Shown here in pieces: positions 1 through 12,944 of a stretch of 58,144 nucleotides of DNA. Position numbers and translations under genes: made by a program. The DNA is from Planctomycetota bacterium (GTDB lineage Bacteria; Planctomycetota; Phycisphaerae; Phycisphaerales; SM1A02): contig JACZRS010000024.1 of the NCBI GenBank assembly GCA_022574595.1, forward strand, positions 1 to 58,144, in the 5' to 3' direction. Position 1 is the first letter of the stretch, and every line of letters begins with the position of its first letter. The notes under the pieces were generated by a model that saw nothing but the letters and a program-made list of their open reading frames with translations, was not told the origin of the DNA and did no database searches.

Positions 1-273
1 TGGGCCTGCTTCTTTTTTTAAGATGGCAATATCCTGGATATGTTCTAAAAAGAAAATCTTATTTCGCAGCGTTGCTGCTTCTTCAAATCGTTCCTCTTTT
101 GACGCCTTTTTCATCTCACGACGATACATTTTTAGAAGATCATCCTTCTTTCCTTCAAAAAACTTAATCAGATCGCGAATATTTTTCGCATAGTCGCTCT
201 TTGAAATTGCACCAATACACACTCCCGGACATTGTTTGAGATGATAATAAAAACAAGAGTGGTAAGAAGAATA
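1..273 (-). pseudogene. UvrC-like fragment (truncated at both ends)
   Basis: The minus-strand frame open from 273 to the window edge encodes 91 residues. It reads 'CFYYHLKQCPGVCIGAISK' and then a helical UVR-type segment with 'EERFEEAATLRNKI' and 'LEHIQDIAILKKEAG'. This is the central part of UvrC, the nucleotide-excision-repair nuclease subunit: the Cys-rich loop after the GIY-YIG domain, then the UvrB-binding UVR motif. There is no start codon: a stop lies at 274-276 and the GIY-YIG half is missing. The tail 'LEHIQDIA' is in a style I associate with Patescibacteria (CPR) UvrC, which is an impression and not a search result. The frame may continue beyond position 1. It is joined directly to a SecF fragment, so it is a remnant or an assembly join rather than a working gene. 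Confidence 0.6.
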
Positions 274-478
274 TCATGAATAAGAGTAAAGACAGCAATA
301 AGACCATATCTACAAGATGACACTGGTTTTGAAACCCTGCGGAAGGCATAAGCAATGAAAAGGATGATTGCCAGCATGACAACAATAAGCGCCATAATTG
401 ATTTCTTTGTAAGCTCGCTTCCCACTGACGGGCCAACAGAAGTAAAACTCTCCCCAAAACCCTCCGTAAGCGTAGAAA
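245..478 (-). pseudogene. SecF-like fragment
   Basis: Reading minus from about 478, one frame gives 'TEGFGESFTSVGPSVG', then 'SELTKKSIMALIVVMLAI', a transmembrane helix, and 'YGLIAVFTLIHDILLTT'. This matches the SecF order of a GP(S/T)xG loop before a membrane helix and the 'HD' helix that follows in the SecDF protein-export accessory subunit. Only about 75 residues are present. The 5' side runs into unrelated sequence at roughly 475-480, and the 3' side passes into the UvrC-like fragment in a different frame at about 241-256, in an AT-rich stretch. Base composition is lower in GC than the gene to the right. It cannot make a functional SecF. Confidence 0.6.
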
Positions 479-891
479 TAAAACAAGCGGACTTGCCAAA
501 TGAACCCGATGACCACGGCTTACCGATCCCCCTGGCAAACTACGTCGAAGGCGTAACAGACCTTGCCGGCATTCGCTGCCCCGACCATGAAGCAGTAGAA
601 ATCGGTATAGATAAACAAGGACGAATAAACCTCCTGGCACGCGAAATAAGACTACGCGATCTAAGAATCGTAGAAGCATGGGCCAAAGCCCATCGAGAAT
701 TAATTTCCCTAGCCTGCCCCGACCACGAATTCGATCCCGCAGGCAAGACCATAAGCCACGTCTTCACTGATACGCCAACCAAAGTTACGGATATGTACGC
801 AACCGACATCCGCCTCTACGTCCTAACACCGGTTGCTGTCCAAGACAAAGTAGGCTGGTACGCCGCCCCCCTAAATAAACCCCGCCGCTAG
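355..891 (+). CDS. Hypothetical protein, probably 5'-truncated
   Basis: The open frame gives 178 residues. The part from about residue 40 onward looks like a genuine soluble protein, with two 'CPDHE' motifs (near residues 75 and 120) and a well-mixed composition ending 'GWYAAPLNKPRR'. I do not recognise a family with a known function. The first ~40 residues are antisense to the SecF-like fragment and have no protein character of their own, so the ATG at 355 (preceded by GGAAGG) is probably accidental. The real gene most likely began in sequence that is missing from this window. Treat 480-891 as the supported coding part. It is followed by a short GC palindrome. Confidence 0.45.
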   Translation: MKRMIASMTTISAIIDFFVSSLPTDGPTEVKLSPKPSVSVEIKQADLPNEPDDHGLPIPLANYVEGVTDLAGIRCPDHEAVEIGIDKQGRINLLAREIRLRDLRIVEAWAKAHRELISLACPDHEFDPAGKTISHVFTDTPTKVTDMYATDIRLYVLTPVAVQDKVGWYAAPLNKPRR

Positions 892-892
892 G

Positions 893-917
893 CGCTCCCC
901 GCTTAAGCGGGGCAGCG
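893..917. repeat. Short GC palindrome (REP-like hairpin)
   Basis: CCCCGCTTAAGCGGGG at 897-912 is a perfect 16-bp palindrome with outer CGCT/AGCG arms. Similar 'cccgct..agcggg' hairpins recur at 3745-3768 and, more weakly, near 3855. No T-run follows on either strand, so a dispersed repeat is more likely than an intrinsic terminator. Confidence 0.6.
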
Positions 918-995
918 TCCGCGAACTAACAATAAGCGCAATCCCCCAAAAGAAAGCGGGACAAGCCCCGCAGCTAAATAATTCAATGTTTCAAA

Positions 996-1027
996 ATTTC
1001 GACATTTCGACGTTTCGACGTTTCGAC
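996..1027. repeat. Four tandem 8-bp units, (A/G)TTTCGAC
   Basis: Units at 996, 1004, 1012 and 1020 read ATTTCGAC, ATTTCGAC, GTTTCGAC, GTTTCGAC, ending 9 bp before the gap stop codon. This is a simple tandem repeat that could vary in length by slippage. No function is visible. Confidence 0.75.
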
Positions 1028-1036
1028 GTTTTCTTC

Positions 1037-2059
1037 TCACCCATTCCCATCCTTCTCCGCCATCATCCGCAGCATATCCAGACACCTACACGCGTAACCC
1101 ATTTCGTTGTCGTACCACGAAAGTACCTTGAAAAACCGATCCGTCAATTCGATGCCAGCACTTGCATCGAAGATGCTTGAATGAGTATCGCCAATAAAAT
1201 CACTGGAAACTACCGCATCTTCCGTGTAATCGAGCACACCATTCATTGGACCGTCCGCTGCTGCTTTCATCGCTGCATTAATCGCAGCAAGATTGGTGGG
1301 CTTTACCGTACGGAAAGTTAGATCAACACAAGAAACATCATTCACCGGCACGCGGTAAGCCATACCCGTGATCTTGCCCTTCAGTTCAGGCACACACAAC
1401 CCAACCGCTTTAGCTGCCCCCGTACTAGAGGGGATGATATTTGCATAAGCATTACGTCCACCGCGCCAATCTTTCTTGGATGGACCGTCCTGTGTCGGCT
1501 GAGTTGCGGTAACTGCGTGGATGGTGGCCATAAGCCCTTCTTCTAATCCGAACTCATCATTAATAACCTTTGCTACCGGCGCAAGACAATTGGTTGTGCA
1601 TGATGCGTTGGAAATAATCGTATCAGTAGCAGGGTTATAGGTTTCGTGATTGACCTTGTAAGCCAGCGTTGGGACCTGGTCCGGCGTCTTAGTTGGTGCA
1701 GAAATAACAACTCGTTTCGCCCCTGCGGTAAGGTGTTTGCTTGCGCCTTGGTGATCTGTAAATAGACCGGTCGATTCGAGGATGTAATCCACCCCTAATT
1801 CTCCCCAGGGAAGCTCCGCAGGATCCTTGATACTGACACATTTTGTTGATGAGCCACAGCAGCTAAATCCATCTGCATCCGCAGTTACAACATGTTCAAA
1901 GCGACCATGAGTGGAGTCGTAGCTCAACAAGTACGCCAAATTATCTGCCGGCACAAGATCGTTTATGGCTGTAAATTCGAAGCCGCCTTCTCGCACACCT
2001 TGGCGATAAACCAGCCTTCCGATACGTCCAAACCCGTTGATACCAACTTTGATAGCCAT
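1037..2059 (-). CDS. gap: Glyceraldehyde-3-phosphate dehydrogenase
   Basis: A 340-residue cytosolic glycolytic enzyme that converts glyceraldehyde-3-phosphate, phosphate and NAD+ to 1,3-bisphosphoglycerate. The N-terminus '[17 protein letters not shown]' is the Rossmann NAD-binding motif. '[11 protein letters not shown]' places an Asp near residue 34, as in NAD-dependent enzymes. '[13 protein letters not shown]' carries the catalytic Cys near residue 154, and the C-terminus has '[15 protein letters not shown]'. Length is normal for the family. AGGAG lies about 8 nt before the ATG, which supports this start. It is transcribed alone, with a ~100-bp gap to the next minus-strand gene upstream. 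Confidence 0.97.
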
Positions 2060-2166
2060 GGGGCAATACTCCTCATTACACCGAATAATTTGGATGAGTC
2101 ACAGTAGGGAAATATCTCCCATTGGGCAAGTGGAGAAATTGGTCAGGATTCTTTGAGCCTTACCCT

Positions 2167-3111
2167 CTAGCTTAATTCCTCATATGCCTTTTTACGATCC
2201 ACTCTTCTAGCGAGTTCGCTTGCGTAGCTCTTGCCTAGCTCATCAGCATTTTCGCGCGCCCACTGGCTTAATTTAGTTTGCCCAGCCGGGGGTGAATCTG
2301 TGTAAAGCAGATCATCCATTAAGCCACGAATCTCTTCACGAGTTATTATCACATCACCTTTTAGTTTGCCCAATATCCAACCCAGTAAGTAACCCAAACT
2401 CGGAGGAACGGAAATTATCTTTCTTTTTATTTCTATAGCTTGCGCAATCGTTTGTGCTAACTCACGAAACGTAAAAGTCTCAGGCCCAATCGCATCAACC
2501 ATAGTGTTTTCATTTTTCTTTGCTTCTTCAACTGCAAGCTTGGCGAAATCTTCAACATAAATCGGCTGCAAGCGATACTTGCCATCGCCGAACACGCCGA
2601 AGATCGGCAAATGCCTCAGCATCCAAGCGATATTGTTTATAAGTATGTCCGCATGACCAAACAAAACCGCAGGGCGAAGAATTGCATGCGATATTCCTGA
2701 TTCAATCAACGCTTTCTCAAGATGCGCTTTACCGGAAAAATATTCTAACGGCGAATCCAGCGATGGGTTAGTAATACTGACATGCACTATTCGCTTAACC
2801 CCAGCTTGCTTTGCTGCATCAAAGAGTTTAAGCGTATTCGCTACCGCATCTGCGTGCTTGAACAAGCGATGATTGAACCGAACCCAGTATGTGTTATATA
2901 AAACATCAGCCCCTTCAAGCGATTGGGTTAATTGAGCAACATCATCAAAGTTAAACGGATGAACTTCGACGCGGCCGTCAAAGGGATTTGTGCGATTAGG
3001 TGAGTTTGTCAACGTGCGAACTTTATGTCCTGCATCTAACAAGAGTTGTGTGATGTATTTCCCGGTATAACCAAATGCACCGGTAACAACATGTAATTGA
3101 TTACTGCTCAC
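2167..3111 (-). CDS. NAD(P)-binding epimerase/NmrA-like atypical SDR
   Basis: A 314-residue protein with an N-terminal Rossmann motif 'VVTGAFGYTGKYI' (GxxGxxG at residues 11-17). 'KRIVHVSITNP' and 'ILRPAVLFG' are typical of the atypical short-chain dehydrogenase/NDUFA9-like group. The canonical YxxxK is replaced by 'YFSGKAHLE', with Tyr and Lys three residues apart, so an extended-SDR active site is possible. The substrate cannot be told from sequence. The start overlaps the stop of the cobalamin adenosyltransferase gene by 4 nt, implying co-transcription and translational coupling. I see no biochemical reason for that pairing. Confidence 0.85.
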   Translation of the reverse strand: MSSNQLHVVTGAFGYTGKYITQLLLDAGHKVRTLTNSPNRTNPFDGRVEVHPFNFDDVAQLTQSLEGADVLYNTYWVRFNHRLFKHADAVANTLKLFDAAKQAGVKRIVHVSITNPSLDSPLEYFSGKAHLEKALIESGISHAILRPAVLFGHADILINNIAWMLRHLPIFGVFGDGKYRLQPIYVEDFAKLAVEEAKKNENTMVDAIGPETFTFRELAQTIAQAIEIKRKIISVPPSLGYLLGWILGKLKGDVIITREEIRGLMDDLLYTDSPPAGQTKLSQWARENADELGKSYASELARRVDRKKAYEELS

Positions 3112-3677
3112 TTATTACTAATCCAAGGAATATCATCAACGCCTGCTTCTTTGTTTGCTCTTCTAGCTAATGCAAACAGCAAATCGCTTAAGCGGTTTAG
3201 ATAAATTTTAACGTATTCACTTACCGATTGATTTTTGCTTAGCGAAATCACATCACGTTCCGCTCGCCTGCAGACTGTTCGAGCCAAGTGCAACCGCGCA
3301 GCCACTTCCGTTCCGCCCGGCAAAACGAAATTTTTCATAGGCTCATTACCCGCATCAATCTCATCGATCCAGGATTCAAGCTGCGAGATATCACTTGCCC
3401 CAATGCGCGTAATTTTATCTTCATGCTTTGAACCGGGGACTGTTGCCAAATCAGCACCAAGCGTAAAAAGCTGACTCTGCAATTTACCAAGCATTTCTTT
3501 TAATGTTGCTTCAAATGCCCCGCCCTTTTCGTAGTCTGCCGCTGCAGTAAGTCCCACACAAGCGTTAAGTTCATCAACACTACCAAACGCAACGATGCGC
3601 GGATCATCCTTTTGTACGCGCTGCGAACCAAACAGCCCAGTAGAACCATCATCACCAGTTTTCGTGTAAAGCTTCAT
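3108..3677 (-). CDS. Cob(I)alamin adenosyltransferase, PduO/MMAB type
   Basis: A 189-residue enzyme that transfers the adenosyl group of ATP to cob(I)alamin or a cobinamide precursor to make coenzyme B12. The N-terminal ATP-binding motif 'TKTGDDGSTGLFG' (residues 5-17), the 'SVDELNACVGL' helix and the C-terminal 'TVCRRAERDVI' arginine/glutamate signature are all present. Length matches PduO-type enzymes. It is the first gene of a two-gene minus-strand unit with the SDR protein. No cobalamin riboswitch was recognised in the 250 bp upstream, which instead hold GC hairpins. Confidence 0.95.
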   Translation of the reverse strand: MKLYTKTGDDGSTGLFGSQRVQKDDPRIVAFGSVDELNACVGLTAAADYEKGGAFEATLKEMLGKLQSQLFTLGADLATVPGSKHEDKITRIGASDISQLESWIDEIDAGNEPMKNFVLPGGTEVAARLHLARTVCRRAERDVISLSKNQSVSEYVKIYLNRLSDLLFALARRANKEAGVDDIPWISNK

Positions 3678-3744
3678 AGGATTAGGGTACGCGGGTAGAA
3701 GGCACTAAGCACTTGGCATTAGGAAATGGTATCGTGAAAGCCGG

Positions 3745-3768
3745 CGCCGCCCGCTTCAGCGGGCGGCG
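3745..3768. repeat. GC hairpin repeat, 10-bp arms with TTCA loop
   Basis: CGCCGCCCGC / GCGGGCGGCG around TTCA is a perfect inverted repeat. It lies in the 252-bp gap (3678-3929) between divergent genes. The same gap also contains 'tcccgctaaacgggg' near 3853-3868, a second weaker hairpin. These look like dispersed REP-type repeats; no promoter was recognised with confidence. Confidence 0.65.
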
Positions 3769-3929
3769 TCTTGAGAAACCGGAAGGCATCAGAAGCCAGT
3801 AGAGAAATGGAATTGGGAAATGATGTCCCATTACCAAGAAGGGACGCTGCGCGTCTCCCGCTAAACGGGGTAGTTAAGAAGAGTATTCGCCCGGAGAATG
3901 TTTAATCCTACTATTAAGTAGGAATTGTC

Positions 3930-4286
3930 GTGAATAGCGAACATGAACAAACTCGTGAACAGTTTATTTCCGAGCCCATCACGCCCGAAGCGGGATCGTT
4001 TTCGACGGAGCTTATGGCTCGTGGTTTGGCAGCACTTCCCGGTGCGTTTACCTGGCGCGACAAGCGCTATGAAGTCGTCGCTTGCATTGATCATTTCAAG
4101 GAAACCTCAACCGAAGGCGGCAAGGCTCAGAGTGATCGCTACTTACGCAGGCAGGTATTTGTGGTTGAGCTTGATACCGGGGAGATCGCCAAGCTCTATG
4201 TTCTTCGCCAAGGCTCGTCTGGGTCGAGTAAGGCTAAGAAGCAGCGGTGGTATCTATACAGCATTACCGGCCCTAATAACGCATAG
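3930..4286 (+). CDS. Small conserved-looking hypothetical protein
   Basis: 118 residues, soluble. The N-terminal third is acidic and poorly ordered. The rest has 'FTWRDKRYEVVACIDHFKE', 'RRQVFVVELDTGEIAKLYV' and a basic 'KAKKQRWYLYSI', suggesting a small beta-barrel-like domain. It vaguely resembles short 'W-x-G-R-x-Y' domains such as DUF6504, but I cannot confirm this. The GTG start at 3930 gives the longest frame. It is followed by a DUF2752 gene after a 35-nt gap, and the five plus-strand genes that follow are tightly packed, so it may open that unit. Confidence 0.6.
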   Translation: MNSEHEQTREQFISEPITPEAGSFSTELMARGLAALPGAFTWRDKRYEVVACIDHFKETSTEGGKAQSDRYLRRQVFVVELDTGEIAKLYVLRQGSSGSSKAKKQRWYLYSITGPNNA

Positions 4287-4321
4287 AACTATCCATTATC
4301 AAAAGTATTGCCCGTGGCGAT

Positions 4322-4819
4322 ATGCTGGAGTACCGTATGGGATCTATGGAAGCACCGCCTATCATTGCCCATATCAATACCACATCAGGCTCGCTGATGC
4401 GAAGAAGGCTGATTGGGGGCCTCGTGCTGCTGGCTACGGCAACCGTGCTGGGCATTGCTGCGTATTTAGAGCCATCGCCCGAAGGCTTAGGAACACATAC
4501 GCAGCTTTATAATATGCCAGATTGTGGCTGGATGGTGACGATGGATCTTCCTTGTATAACGTGTGGGATGACTACGGCGTTTTCCCATGCTGCCAACGGA
4601 AATCTGCTGGCATCCTTCGCCACACAACCGTTTGGAGCGGTATTGGCAGTAATTACCGCGATGGTGTTCTTAGTTAGTAGTTATGTGACGTATACTGGCT
4701 CTCAGGTTGCGTCGGTCTTTGGACGACTTTGGGGACGTGGGGCAGGATGGATTTTAGCGCTTAGCGCCACCGCAGCCTGGGTCTACAAGATCCTTGCCTA
4801 TAAGGGGCTTTTCGGATGA
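4322..4819 (+). CDS. DUF2752 membrane protein
   Basis: 165 residues with a membrane helix at about 29-49, the DUF2752 hallmark 'PCITCGMTTAF' at residues 77-87, and further helices at about 100-125 and 140-160. The family is widespread and of unknown function; the CxxCGMT motif suggests a metal- or redox-active site at the membrane. The start may be an internal ATG (4340 or 4397), since the first 25 residues are not hydrophobic. The stop overlaps the next gene by 4 nt (ATGA), so it is coupled to the two lipoprotein genes that follow. Confidence 0.85.
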   Translation: MLEYRMGSMEAPPIIAHINTTSGSLMRRRLIGGLVLLATATVLGIAAYLEPSPEGLGTHTQLYNMPDCGWMVTMDLPCITCGMTTAFSHAANGNLLASFATQPFGAVLAVITAMVFLVSSYVTYTGSQVASVFGRLWGRGAGWILALSATAAWVYKILAYKGLFG

Positions 4820-5493
4820 CAAAGAATCGAATTTTCTTAGCACTTTTAACATTGACAGGCAGCGCAGCACTTTGTGGATGCGAAGCGGCACTACTACTTG
4901 GTGGCATGAGCCAGAACTATGAATACTCCAAACAGATAGAAGTTGAGCCGGTATATTACGGCCTGGAGAATAAGACAGTCGCGGTGATAGTGCAGACTGA
5001 TCAAGGCACTCTATATGAGCATCCTGGTTTGGAACTCACGCTGGCTACAGGTATTTCTGGTCGTATTCAAAAACATGTTGCGGGCGTAGTAGTAACTAAT
5101 CCAGTCGAGATCAATAACTGGAAATTCAAGACCCGGGAATGGTATTCGATGCCTTATGGTGAAATTGCGGAGAAGCTTAATGTTGATAGGTTGGTCTTTG
5201 TTGACGTTTACGAATACCGACTTAACCCAATAGGAAACCGATATCTTTGGGATGGAGTTTGTGCAGCTAATGTAGGGATCATCGAGCGCGATGGTTTTGA
5301 TCCAGATACGTTTGTTGATTCGTTTAGTATTGAAAATCGATTTCCGAATATAAGCGGAGTCGGACGAGAAAGCGCGCAGCGTAGTGCGATTGAAAAGGGA
5401 CTAATGGGACCGTTCATTGCGAAAACAGCTGGTCTTTTTCACACTCACCTTGTGCCTAAGCATCCTGACAAGTACAAGGCATTGCCCAAGTGA
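4816..5493 (+). CDS. Lipoprotein of unknown function (pair member 1)
   Basis: 225 residues. A signal peptide ends in a lipobox 'ALCGC' near residue 22, so the mature protein should be lipid-anchored. The body has 'KTVAVIVQTDQ', 'WYSMPYGEIAEKLNVDRLVFVDVYEY' and 'SIENRFPNISG'. The layout of a beta-strand followed by 'IAEKLNVDRLVFVDV' resembles outer-membrane lipoproteins that form a small alpha/beta domain, comparable to the next gene product ('IGRAVGAEQVLYIEM'). It overlaps both neighbours by 4 nt, so the three genes are translated as a unit. Function unknown. Confidence 0.8.
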   Translation: MTKNRIFLALLTLTGSAALCGCEAALLLGGMSQNYEYSKQIEVEPVYYGLENKTVAVIVQTDQGTLYEHPGLELTLATGISGRIQKHVAGVVVTNPVEINNWKFKTREWYSMPYGEIAEKLNVDRLVFVDVYEYRLNPIGNRYLWDGVCAANVGIIERDGFDPDTFVDSFSIENRFPNISGVGRESAQRSAIEKGLMGPFIAKTAGLFHTHLVPKHPDKYKALPK

Positions 5494-5525
5494 TTTTCAA
5501 ACTGGTCACGAGAAAAGGATTTGTT

Positions 5526-6200
5526 GTGCTGAAGAATTTTTTACGATCCGCCCTTTTGCTGGCATTAGCGATTGCTTGTACAGGCTTTTTATCATCATGC
5601 AACATTCTAGGGCCGGCAGCTTTTATTATTGATGGAATGCCTAAGCGAGATGCACAGTACGCTCTAATGGATCGCCCGACCGTTGTCTTTGTAGATGATC
5701 CGAGGAATGCCTTATCTGATCGTAATTTAAGGCGCTATATTGGTGATAAAGTTGCGACCCAGCTAATGCTAAACAAGATCGTTACAGTGACTATCAGCTC
5801 AGCAGATGCAATGGGAGTTGCAAGGGGCGACAGGCATGGTAAACGTATGCCCATCGAAGCCATTGGGCGTGCAGTAGGCGCTGAGCAGGTACTTTATATT
5901 GAAATGATGTCGTTTACTCTGAGTCCCGACAATGTAACACCCCAACCTATAGGGATTTGCAAAATTAAAGTAATTGATGCCATGAACCGCATTCGATTGT
6001 TTCCGGAAATGGATGAAAATTCACAAGCCGCAGCAGCTTATCCTGTTCATGTAGCACTGCCAAGGTTAAGTACGGAGCTTTATCGATCCGCATCAGGCAG
6101 GCGCAAGATGAATGAACAGCTTGCAAGTCACATGGCTGATCAAATTGCTAAGGTTTTCTATAAGCACGTACCGAACGAATTGGGATCGCGACTAAAATAA
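5526..6200 (+). CDS. Lipoprotein of unknown function (pair member 2)
   Basis: The reading frame opens at 5490 with a GTG overlapping the previous stop. The GTG at 5526, with AAAGG upstream, starts right at the signal peptide and is preferred. The lipobox 'LSSC' follows a hydrophobic stretch. The body contains 'RPTVVFVDDPRN', 'RRYIGDKVATQLM' and 'IEAIGRAVGAEQVLYIEM', the same arrangement as the upstream lipoprotein, so the two are probably distant paralogues. Family unknown. Next to it lies a glycosyltransferase, 2 nt away, which suggests an envelope-related role (inference). Confidence 0.8.
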   Translation: MLKNFLRSALLLALAIACTGFLSSCNILGPAAFIIDGMPKRDAQYALMDRPTVVFVDDPRNALSDRNLRRYIGDKVATQLMLNKIVTVTISSADAMGVARGDRHGKRMPIEAIGRAVGAEQVLYIEMMSFTLSPDNVTPQPIGICKIKVIDAMNRIRLFPEMDENSQAAAAYPVHVALPRLSTELYRSASGRRKMNEQLASHMADQIAKVFYKHVPNELGSRLK

Positions 6201-11217: not shown

Positions 11218-11454
11218 TGCCTTAGTAATCTCCTGAGGCCCCTTTTAATTGCAAACATTAAGGAGCCACCATGACCCACTGCACAACTATGGGATAAATA
11301 ATGTGATCGGCCTAGCGAGGAGGCATCATTACGTGGCTTAACTGATGATTTTGTAGATTTTTTAATTATTGAACAAAATGCACCTAAACCGATGAAACTA
11401 CAAGTAGTTACAGCTATATTGCCTTGAGGTCATAGTGGATAAAAATCCCATTTT
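11218..11454. other. Gene-free region upstream of mraZ
   Basis: No convincing gene. An AAGGAG followed by ATG at 11271 opens an 8-codon frame ending at 11297, which could be a leader peptide but may be chance. TTGAGG at 11424 and TTGCCT at 11419 are possible -35 elements for mraZ, but no well-spaced -10 is evident. The MraZ operator begins at the right-hand edge. Confidence 0.4.
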
Positions 11455-11503
11455 GTGTGGAATTGTGGGAAATAGTGTTGCAATGTGGGCGAGTGTGGGT
11501 TAA
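11455..11503 (+). promoter_or_regulatory. MraZ operator: five 10-bp-phased TGGG-type repeats
   Basis: Units start at 11455, 11465, 11475, 11485 and 11495. They read GTGTGGAATT, GTGGGAAATA, GTGTTGCAAT, GTGGGCGAGT and GTGGGTTAAG. Exact 10-bp phasing of TGGG-like cores upstream of mraZ is the known operator architecture for MraZ, which binds several repeats as a ring-shaped oligomer and represses its own operon. Three units are strong and two degenerate. The array ends 33 bp before the chosen mraZ start. Confidence 0.85.
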
Positions 11504-11535
11504 GTTCTGCCCCGTTCTATACGAGGCAAGAATGC

Positions 11536-12018
11536 GTGCTATTTACCGGCGAATACGAGTACACGATCGACGCAAAAGGGCGCTTGGCTATACCGGCCGA
11601 GATTCGCTCCTGGTTGGATCCGCAGAAAGGCGGCTGCGGTTTCTATATCACCGCAGGCCCCAACGATGCTCTTTGGCTCTGGCCGGAACGGACTTTCGAG
11701 CGAATTGCGGGGGCGATCGAGGAATCATTGCTGCAAACCGAGGAGCAGATAGAGTTCGACGAGATTACCTTCCCCAGCGCAAGACACTTGGAAATGGACA
11801 AATCCGGACGAGTGCTACTTCCTCAGAAAATGATCGAAGCAGCTGGGATTGGCTCCAAAGTGATGATTCTAGGGATGCGAGATCACCTGGAGTTAAGAGA
11901 TCCAGCTCAATGGGAAAAAAGACAAAAAGAAAAATTAGAGAAGAAATCCAAGATTTTCTACCGCGCACGGCAAGCGCAGTTCGAAAAGCCAAAGCCTCAG
12001 TCAGATTTCGAGAAATAA
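11536..12018 (+). CDS. mraZ: Transcriptional regulator MraZ
   Basis: 160 residues from the GTG at 11536, chosen because 'VLFTGEYEYTIDAKGRLAIP' then begins exactly where MraZ proteins begin and GAGG lies about 9 nt upstream. An upstream in-frame GTG at 11485 falls inside the operator. Two SpoVT/AbrB-like repeats are visible: the first with 'DAKGRLAIPAEIR', the second with 'MDKSGRVLLPQKMIEAA'. MraZ is a DNA-binding repressor of the division and cell-wall cluster and of itself. Here the usual rsmH (mraW) partner does not follow; a ~400-nt gene-free structured stretch does. Charged tail 'KKSKIFYRARQAQFEK'. Confidence 0.95.
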   Translation: MLFTGEYEYTIDAKGRLAIPAEIRSWLDPQKGGCGFYITAGPNDALWLWPERTFERIAGAIEESLLQTEEQIEFDEITFPSARHLEMDKSGRVLLPQKMIEAAGIGSKVMILGMRDHLELRDPAQWEKRQKEKLEKKSKIFYRARQAQFEKPKPQSDFEK

Positions 12019-12415
12019 ACAGGACATGCCTGCGGCTTGTGTCCTTCTCACGATCGCTGCAATCTTTGGCTTACCCGCAATATTGGGAGTCGAAATGTCA
12101 TGCAAGGACGCATGACATGTGTATGGGCCCCCGTAGTACTCCCGCTATGACCGACCAAACTGTCAATCACCAGAGGCGCTGTCGGCGCGCAAGGGCTGGA
12201 TTGGAACACAGATCGACGAATGTTCGTCGATCTCAGGCCGGTCAGACTTTATGCACAGTTCCCACAAGTCAAGGAAGACAAGGGAACACCGAATCCTGCA
12301 TGCCGTTCGCAGAGCGTAGAACCACCTCGGTCGCTGCCGAGGTGTGGCATCGGGCCGTGTCGCCCACGCCATCATTCCGTACGTCTCCGGTCCTGCCAGG
12401 GGTCGGAGGCTTTTT
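12019..12415 (+). ncRNA. Candidate structured RNA downstream of mraZ
   Basis: No convincing coding frame exists here and the sequence is more GC-rich than its flanks. Perfect or near-perfect helices: GGACATGCC(12022)/GGC..GTGTCC(12044); GGGAGT(12085)/ACTCCC(12138) enclosing ATGTCATGC/GCATGACAT (12095-12118); TGACCG(12148)/CGGTCA(12239) enclosing GATCGACGA/TCGTCGATC (12211-12232); CACCTCGG/CCGAGGTG (12323-12344); and a terminal hairpin with TTTTT at 12411. Nested helices plus a terminator suggest a transcribed, folded RNA, either the mraZ 3' UTR or an independent RNA. It does not carry the signature motifs of RNase P RNA, tmRNA or SRP RNA. The boundaries and strand are inferred from the terminator. 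Confidence 0.5.
12383..12415 (+). terminator. Intrinsic terminator
   Basis: GTCTCCGG (12383-12390) pairs with TCGGAGGC (12403-12410) through eight pairs including two G-U, and is followed at once by TTTTT (12411-12415). It would end the mraZ transcript or the candidate RNA. Confidence 0.8.
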
Positions 12416-12545
12416 CTGCCACTTGGCTCACTGACTAGTCAGATAGAGCCAAACGTTCCCTTCTCCCCCTCGCTCGCGGCGTGTCCCACCACATGCTGCG
12501 GGCATTTTTTATGGCGCAGTCAACAATTGAATTGAACCAAATAGA

Positions 12546-12770
12546 TCAGCTTCTGTTTCCGCTTGCGGGTCTAATTGTTGCTACGACATCAATTTTGCCA
12601 GATATAATCTGATCCGCAACCTCACGTCTGTGAACATCAATATGTCGCGGGAACGAAAACGCTAGCCGCACACGATCGCCTTTGATAGACGCAACGCGAA
12701 CAACTCCGTAAGGATTACTCGGATCCCCGATGACTACCTCTTCCCCTTCGTGTCTAGATATAACCAGCAT
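12546..12770 (-). CDS. csrA: Carbon storage regulator CsrA
   Basis: 74 residues from the ATG at 12770; an upstream in-frame start at 12788 is rejected because AGGAGG sits 7-8 nt before 12770. 'MLVISRHEGEEVVIGD' is the canonical first strand, and 'GVVRVASIKGDRVRLAFSFP' and 'IDVHRREVADQI' contain the conserved RNA-binding Arg of the 'RRE' segment. CsrA binds GGA motifs in mRNA leaders to control translation. The C-terminus is a little longer than in E. coli (61 residues). It is convergent with mraZ and the candidate RNA. No FliW gene or flagellar gene is in the window. Confidence 0.95.
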   Translation of the reverse strand: MLVISRHEGEEVVIGDPSNPYGVVRVASIKGDRVRLAFSFPRHIDVHRREVADQIISGKIDVVATIRPASGNRS

Positions 12771-12944
12771 CTGATGGCCTCCTGCCAAGCTTAAGCGCGT
12801 TCATGCGCAATCCCACCACTTGGTAGGATACACAAATCCCCCGCCTAAGTCAGCAATTATTGCCGGTTTTTATATTTAGTCTTGCAAACGCCGATCTCGA
12901 CAATAAAGGCACATATTTGCCCCAAGATATTGTCCTATAAGGCC

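Follow-up and report, generated by a model that had tools for sequence, protein, structure and literature searches.

We describe here a stretch of DNA behind mraZ in a planctomycete genome that is likely, in our view, to encode a CsrA-sequestering RNA, which would be produced as part of the mraZ transcript and would have csrA2, a divergent csrA paralog, as its main client. The DNA analysed (hereafter, the window) is 58,144 nt long and comes from a member of the order Phycisphaerales. As read from the sequences, the stretch is noncoding, ends in an intrinsic terminator, and has a covarying stem whose loop is kept; the loop motif is strand specific and recurs behind mraZ across the family as sampled. 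In the mechanism that we propose, the RNA would be transcribed with mraZ as its 3′ region and would end at a conserved terminator near position 12510. Each ANGGAN hexaloop closed by a C-G pair would be one CsrA site, two such sites would hold one CsrA dimer, and the RNA would thereby compete with mRNAs for CsrA; the main client would be CsrA2, which is usually encoded next to the array. We infer that the RNA binds CsrA, that it acts in trans, and that csrA2 (rather than csrA1) is its client. The features of the locus are collected in Table 1.

Table 1. The mraZ-csrA2 locus and its predicted RNA elements (positions in the window)
Feature	Position	Strand	Basis or remark
Direct repeats ca. 10 nt apart (GTGTTGCAAT GTGGGCGAGT GTGGG), candidate MraZ operator	11475-11499	+	Upstream of mraZ
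mraZ	11536-12018	+	PF02381, 88.1 bits; domain match over 11485-12015
Predicted CsrA-sequestering RNA (mraZ 3′ region to last conserved terminator)	12019-12510	+	Fold, covariation, hairpin array in relatives
GGA hairpin 1, ATGTCATGC-AAGGAC-GCATGACAT, putative CsrA-type site	12095-12118	+	Nine pairs
GGA hairpin 2, GTC-AAGGAA-GAC, putative CsrA-type site	12268-12279	+	Three pairs; stem unchanged in five sequences
Helix without GGA loop, between GGA hairpins and terminators	12323-12344	+	84% of cells paired; two-sided changes in 3/9 pairs
U-tract hairpin (terminator of the preliminary description)	12383-12415	+	Stem paired in 98% of cells
Conserved intrinsic terminator, loop UCCCACCA	12472-12510	+	95% of cells paired
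csrA2, a divergent paralog of csrA and the RNA's predicted client	12546-12770	-	PF02599, 51 bits
csrA2 Shine-Dalgarno sequence in small hairpin GGC-AGGAG-GCC, predicted autoregulatory CsrA site	12776-12786	-	

The locus and the structure of the RNA

The RNA lies directly behind the mraZ coding region and on the same strand, as in a 3′UTR-derived sponge. A preliminary description of this DNA had placed it after mraZ and convergent to csrA, and both placements are borne out. About 490 nt separate mraZ from the convergent csrA2, and the U-tract hairpin at 12472-12510 closes that stretch. The same description had noted that rsmH is missing from its usual place behind mraZ; in the genome of the window, rsmH is indeed found on contig C2 and mraZ on contig C29. 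Because rsmH sits on another contig, mraZ has in this genome left the rsmH neighbourhood, and the hairpin array stands in its place.

A second mraZ-RNA locus (L003) is present on contig C17 (positions 1 to 6000) of the same genome bin, G000. It has the same neighbouring genes as the window, judged by ORF translations, and ca. 74% DNA identity to it; over the RNA, it is ca. 93% identical to the locus of G103 (genus g48), with 34 differences in 511 columns. It is probably not a paralog but part of a 254-kb contig that contaminates the bin. Separately, the mraZ match contains one in-frame TGA in three genomes of genus g17 (G069, G111, and G132).

The absence of a supported coding frame, claimed at the outset, is confirmed by the evenness of substitutions over codon positions relative to four relatives (73, 64, and 65 of 165 each against the C17 copy) and by protein-like matches between loci that mostly fit several frame combinations (146 of 162 locus pairs). 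No conserved protein frame across species was found in the window's family. A 325-aa open frame (11457-12434) does cross mraZ and the RNA, out of frame; coding through it was ruled out by the even substitutions in the RNA part and by indels that shift the frame.

Nor does the stretch belong to a known RNA family on the tests made. Zero Rfam matches at gathering score were obtained in the window, in line with the earlier statement that the RNA is not RNase P, tmRNA, or SRP RNA; no tRNA or tmRNA was found in the window, and the models for CsrB, CsrC, and RsmX/Y/Z gave no match there at gathering score. When Rfam was searched at E values up to 5 in 12 related loci, five matches were returned, all far below gathering score and none to a CsrA-binding RNA family. 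Scr3202 overlaps the RNA of locus L018 at a subthreshold score (31 of 52 bits; E, 1.1) and was rejected. A phage origin was likewise set aside: there was no match among phage records, and no relative turned up when viral contigs were searched with the MraZ of the window.

The stretch originally delimited (12019-12415) folds better than its shuffled counterparts (z, −2.38; 3 of 100 shuffles fold as well), and so does the stretch extended to 12510 (z, −3.32; 1 of 100). Compensatory changes, which the preliminary description had proposed as a check on its helices, are present: across five related sequences, of which two are almost the same, 24 pairs of the window's fold have two-sided changes, compared with 11.4 in shuffles (0 of 500 reach 24), and sliding the partners gives at most 8. 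The nested helices fared unequally. That at 12095-12118 is firm, with 93% of cells paired and two-sided changes in five of nine pairs in the five sequences; so are both hairpins that resemble terminators. That at 12323-12344 is fair, while the middle block (12148-12244) is mostly weak, its four helices being paired in 80, 36, 67, and 63% of cells and two-sided changes occurring in 5 of 24 pairs. Thus, the claim of a novel structured RNA is supported, with covariation, without an Rfam family, and without a conserved protein frame; what had been missed is that this RNA displays CsrA-type GGA hairpins.

The 3′ end also needs revision. The helix of the terminator originally proposed, at 12415, is conserved, but its U-tract is interrupted in relatives, whereas the hairpin at 12472-12510 is kept with its U-tract in all five aligned sequences. 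For this reason, the RNA probably extends past 12415 to about 12510. In 36 of the 114 family loci (see below), a terminator hairpin with a U-tract carries a CCCACC-type loop, and 34 of these 36 have CUUCC within 12 nt before the stem. The 3′ end of the RNA (12455-12510) is conserved to an unusual degree, beyond what a terminator needs, and could possibly be a pairing seed.

GGA hairpins in the window and its relatives

Both GGA hairpins of the window fit CANGGANG with a six-base loop. The published CsrA/RsmE consensus is (A/U)CANGGANG(U/A) (PMC6692469), and a review (PMC7652899) describes six-base loops closed by AC/GU in 44 of 55 SELEX ligands. A stem as long as that of hairpin 1 on an ANGGAN loop arises in 1 of 5000 shuffles. 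In the five orthologs, A-N-GGA is kept in both loops while stem 1 changes (the loop of hairpin 2 being A-R-GGA-R in all five), and a kept loop on a changing stem is how a protein-binding hairpin should look at the sequence level. The window's own copy is nonetheless weak. It has two sites only, one of them strict by the definition given below and the other with three pairs, and it has no strand bias in plain GGA (8 forward and 10 reverse; ANGGA, 3 and 3). When the stretch in the window is shuffled 5000 times, two ANGGAN hexaloops with at least three pairs occur in 5 of the shuffles and two or more CANGGANG in 55. Among the points against a sponge are that the copy in the window has just these two sites, one on a three-pair stem, and no bias in plain GGA, and that many stems exceed the length typical of SELEX ligands, most of which, according to PMC7652899, have at most four contiguous pairs, very stable stems possibly hindering binding; window hairpin 1 has nine.

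Stronger evidence comes from relatives, which were collected through MraZ searches because direct DNA similarity across 41 genomes found none beyond the window's own genome and an initial search of named genomes that used only the window's MraZ found none either. The closest relatives that bear names are assemblies from Phycisphaerales and from other Planctomycetota. We called a hairpin strict if its ANGGAN hexaloop has a C-G closing pair and its stem at least four pairs, and counted such hairpins in the first 450 nt after mraZ. In the family of the window, mraZ was found in 113 of 121 sampled genomes, at 114 loci, two of which (G056, with 284 nt, and G044, with 129 nt) have less than 300 nt downstream and were left out of the count. 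All of the 112 remaining loci have at least one strict hairpin, and 92 have two or more; 274 lie on the mraZ strand and 2 on the opposite strand, these loci sharing descent and so not being independent samples. The number per locus is one to four in 111 of the 112. A strand bias is also seen in CANGGANG (342 versus 17 in the 112 loci) and in ANGGA (family mean per 400 nt, 5.2 versus 1.1). Palindromes acting at the DNA level were ruled out, since the hairpin loop is confined to one strand.

A broader set of 98 loci, left after 15 duplicates were dropped from 113, overlaps the family set, so that the counts are not additive. It has 208 strict hairpins forward and 2 reverse (450 nt); dinucleotide shuffles of this set have a mean of 3.8 and a maximum of 9 in 50 runs, and strict hairpins are rare elsewhere in the same loci (80 and 38 by strand in 554 kb). 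When CANGGANG sites were picked by sequence alone, at least three further pairs were found at 74.5% of 251 sites, versus 6.75% of 400 controls; many of the 251 have at least four pairs beyond the closing C-G, and stem lengths vary. At 95% of 231 distinct sites, the two bases adjoining the closing C-G can pair, and all six pair types are represented; the value is 44% when partners are shuffled and 40% at 388 control sites; formation of the next pairs outward falls from 89% to 58%. These sites were chosen by their loop, and the constancy of the loop at the 231 sites reflects that selection.

Strict hairpins also occur within mraZ itself, 22 of them in the last 150 nt of the coding region in the 98 loci. 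In several genomes (for example, L012, L021, L022, and L047), codons for the conserved stretch GVKDHLEL, ca. 130 to 150 nt before the mraZ stop, form a GGA hairpin resembling GGGTG-AAGGAT-CACCT, either because the protein motif happens to produce it or as an additional site.

Beyond the family, we examined an order sample and a phylum sample, each of 30 loci out of 114 genomes with a match; three loci of the order sample are from the window's family, one of them the window itself. At least one strict hairpin is present in 20 of the 30 order loci (37 forward and 0 reverse within 500 nt), and ANGGA is biased to the same strand (142 forward and 29 reverse within 400 nt). The strict hairpin is absent in 10 of these 30 loci, including four of four in family f4. 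In the phylum sample, a frame of at least 266 aa starts within 450 nt behind mraZ in 25 of 30 loci, and this frame is a candidate rsmH by its size and the usual gene order. Strict hairpins are few in this sample (6 and 0), and ANGGA is still 98 to 36; the ANGGA bias alone is consequently not specific. Four loci of family f26 (L189, L177, L203, and L201) have an ANGGA excess on the mraZ strand with few strict hairpins (10 and 0 ANGGA behind mraZ at L189, genome G277), and this family may be a further occurrence outside the order.

CsrA paralogs, MraZ, and alternative readings

csrA was found in 30 of 31 genomes and fliW in 28 of 31. In the genome of the window, csrA1 (79.7 bits) lies ca. 200 nt from fliW on contig C22. 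Because most genomes have FliW, and because in this one it is near csrA1, a FliW-csrA1 circuit is probably present too. csrA2 was found in the downstream sequence examined at 104 of the 114 family loci, 75 of these copies being convergent and 29 codirectional. The three genomes that lack FliW have one csrA each, of the csrA2 class, and keep the hairpins, as do all of the nine genomes of this kind sampled in the family, whose lone csrA has a csrA2-class score. In CsrA2, arginine 6 is retained and (I/V)HR occupies the position of arginine 44; leucine 4 is replaced by isoleucine, four residues are inserted after GD, and the tail mostly contains IRP. A residue that we presume to contact FliW was considered as a feature separating CsrA1 from CsrA2 and was dropped, its position being variable among CsrA2 proteins.

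The leader of csrA2 is itself of interest, as AGGAG is flanked by at least three pairs in 85 of 95 csrA2 leaders and by at least four in 58. Of 1554 other AGGAG sites, 18% have at least three pairs and 7% at least four; of 126 Shine-Dalgarno-like sites, 15% have at least three. Because the csrA2 Shine-Dalgarno sequence sits in a GGA hairpin, this arrangement suggests autorepression by CsrA2, as would be expected of a functional Csr protein.

With regard to the origin of the transcript, the first strict hairpin starts a median of 92 nt after the mraZ stop (minimum, 2 nt; 89 loci with a strict hairpin). In 7 of these 89 it starts within 26 nt, too close for an intervening promoter to fit. These seven loci include L018, of the window's family, at 22 nt; the closest case, L071 (2 nt), appears to belong to family f5, in which a small frame follows mraZ. 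A search for sigma-70-like promoters in 11300-12900 gave one hit, upstream of mraZ and at chance level (1.6 expected). Upstream of mraZ there are also direct repeats that resemble MraZ operators, and MraZ may for this reason govern the array. Loose TGGG-type repeats spaced by ca. 10 nt occur there at 64 of 98 loci but are uncommon in pieces taken at random (35 of 980) and in shuffles (32 of 1960); in Mollicutes, MraZ binds AAAGTG[T/G] direct repeats (PMC8475190). We infer that the RNA is cotranscribed with mraZ and hence controlled by MraZ.

Taken a step further, each Phycisphaerales cell could have two CsrA circuits, one of FliW and csrA1 and the other of an mraZ-3′ RNA sponge and a dedicated csrA2, a suggestion that we offer tentatively. 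If it is true, MraZ, elsewhere the repressor of the cell division cluster, would set the level of free CsrA2, because the sponge would be the 3′ part of the mraZ transcript; it would also mean that CsrA-sponge control has one origin outside Proteobacteria, with FliW and sponge RNA coexisting.

The chief alternative is that the hairpins act in cis, as an mraZ 3′UTR on which CsrA stabilizes or destabilizes the mraZ mRNA, too little RNA being made to titrate CsrA. An array tied to csrA adjacency alone was rejected, given that it also follows mraZ where no csrA2 lies in the downstream stretch examined. This is the case at 10 of 114 loci, and all eight of those long enough to count carry hairpins, which is what control in cis would lead one to expect, as are the modest site numbers (one to four in nearly all family loci). 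However, up to five sites are not obviously needed for such control, csrA2 is nearby downstream at the other 104 loci, and the array persists in the nine genomes with csrA2 alone. On balance, we regard cis control of mraZ as unlikely.

The picture may be different in family f5. A conserved small frame of ca. 55 to 83 aa with the motif W.P..[IL]SDR.L.EL follows mraZ in five of its six loci (L118, L127, L131, L207, and L208; not found in L209), and GGA hairpins lie around the start of this frame in some genomes, a feature that also speaks for the cis reading. The single CsrA hit is of the csrA1 class in five of the six genomes, and some GGA hairpins persist. Since the hairpins adjoin a small conserved frame and the csrA1-class hit stands alone, those of f5 may act in cis. 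A strict pairing of sponge and csrA2 is only partly supported, since five of the six f5 genomes have no csrA2-class hit and the family still keeps some GGA hairpins.

We consider it very unlikely that the GGA loops are mimics of the Shine-Dalgarno sequence, which would pair with C-rich loops or with the ribosome instead of binding CsrA. Loops of the AAGGAU type do look like Shine-Dalgarno sites, and a conserved C-rich segment (CUUCC and the CCCACC loop) is available at the 3′ end of the RNA itself, but loop base 2 and the base after GGA vary freely while the hexaloop and its C-G closure are kept, so that the rule for CsrA fits better than a pairing seed; csrA2 is, moreover, close by. Finally, that this is some other structured RNA with incidental GGA loops, or a chance result, is suggested by the modest copy in the window (the 55 in 5000 shuffles given above) and is highly improbable in view of the strand bias in the family (274 versus 2), the pairing of stems at motif sites far above controls, and the rarity of two paired ANGGAN hexaloops in window shuffles (5 in 5000).

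Comparison with known systems

A CsrA-sequestering RNA behind mraZ would resemble CsrB and CsrC of E. coli and RsmX/Y/Z of Pseudomonas in that it is noncoding, has several GGA sites in loops, and ends in an intrinsic terminator; by analogy, binding of CsrA dimers would be expected. The planctomycete RNA differs from these in having fewer and more perfect ANGGAN hexaloop hairpins and no Rfam match, and in its setting: it follows mraZ, usually with a csrA paralog close by, and is found in Planctomycetota, mostly in genomes with FliW (28 of 31). E. coli CsrB has 22 GGA versus 2 by strand yet 0 strict hexaloop hairpins by the same test, and the layout seen here thus departs from the CsrB archetype. 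Sponge RNAs of this kind have been described mainly from Gammaproteobacteria.

A closer parallel in origin is RsmU of Xanthomonas, an RsmA-binding RNA from an mRNA 3′ region, outside known Rfam families (PMC7694677). It is reported there as limited to the genus Xanthomonas and associated with another host gene, whereas the RNA behind mraZ occurs widely in an order. Binding of RsmU in vitro was not abolished when its four predicted GGA motifs were all mutated (PMC7694677).

Structured RNA near mraZ or mraW also has a precedent in the mraW RNA motif of Actinobacteria, which lies upstream of mraW. The RNA described here has no Rfam match, and in the window's genome rsmH (mraW) is elsewhere.

The antagonism of FliW and CsrA known from B. 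subtilis and C. jejuni is relevant in that most genomes here carry FliW. FliW is, however, a protein, while the proposed antagonist is an RNA beside a second csrA, and this RNA persists in three family genomes that lack FliW. According to a survey (PMC4682653), BarA-UvrY and fliW are strongly anti-correlated, and Planctomycetes are among the groups that it proposes may use FliW.

We found no report of a planctomycete CsrA sponge or of an mraZ-csrA RNA in the open-licence literature, among the matches listed. By function class, the RNA would be a CsrA-sequestering RNA, and by descent it would stand outside the known families on the tests made; what is new is that it occurs in this phylum, that it is linked to mraZ and to a paralog of csrA, and that most of the genomes concerned also encode FliW. 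If our reading is correct, MraZ, separated from rsmH, gains a candidate job outside cell division, and a new RNA family spans much of one planctomycete order. The review cited above (PMC7652899) treats as undecided whether FliW and small RNAs work together in any species. With FliW, two CsrA paralogs, and a predicted sponge together, this question becomes directly testable.
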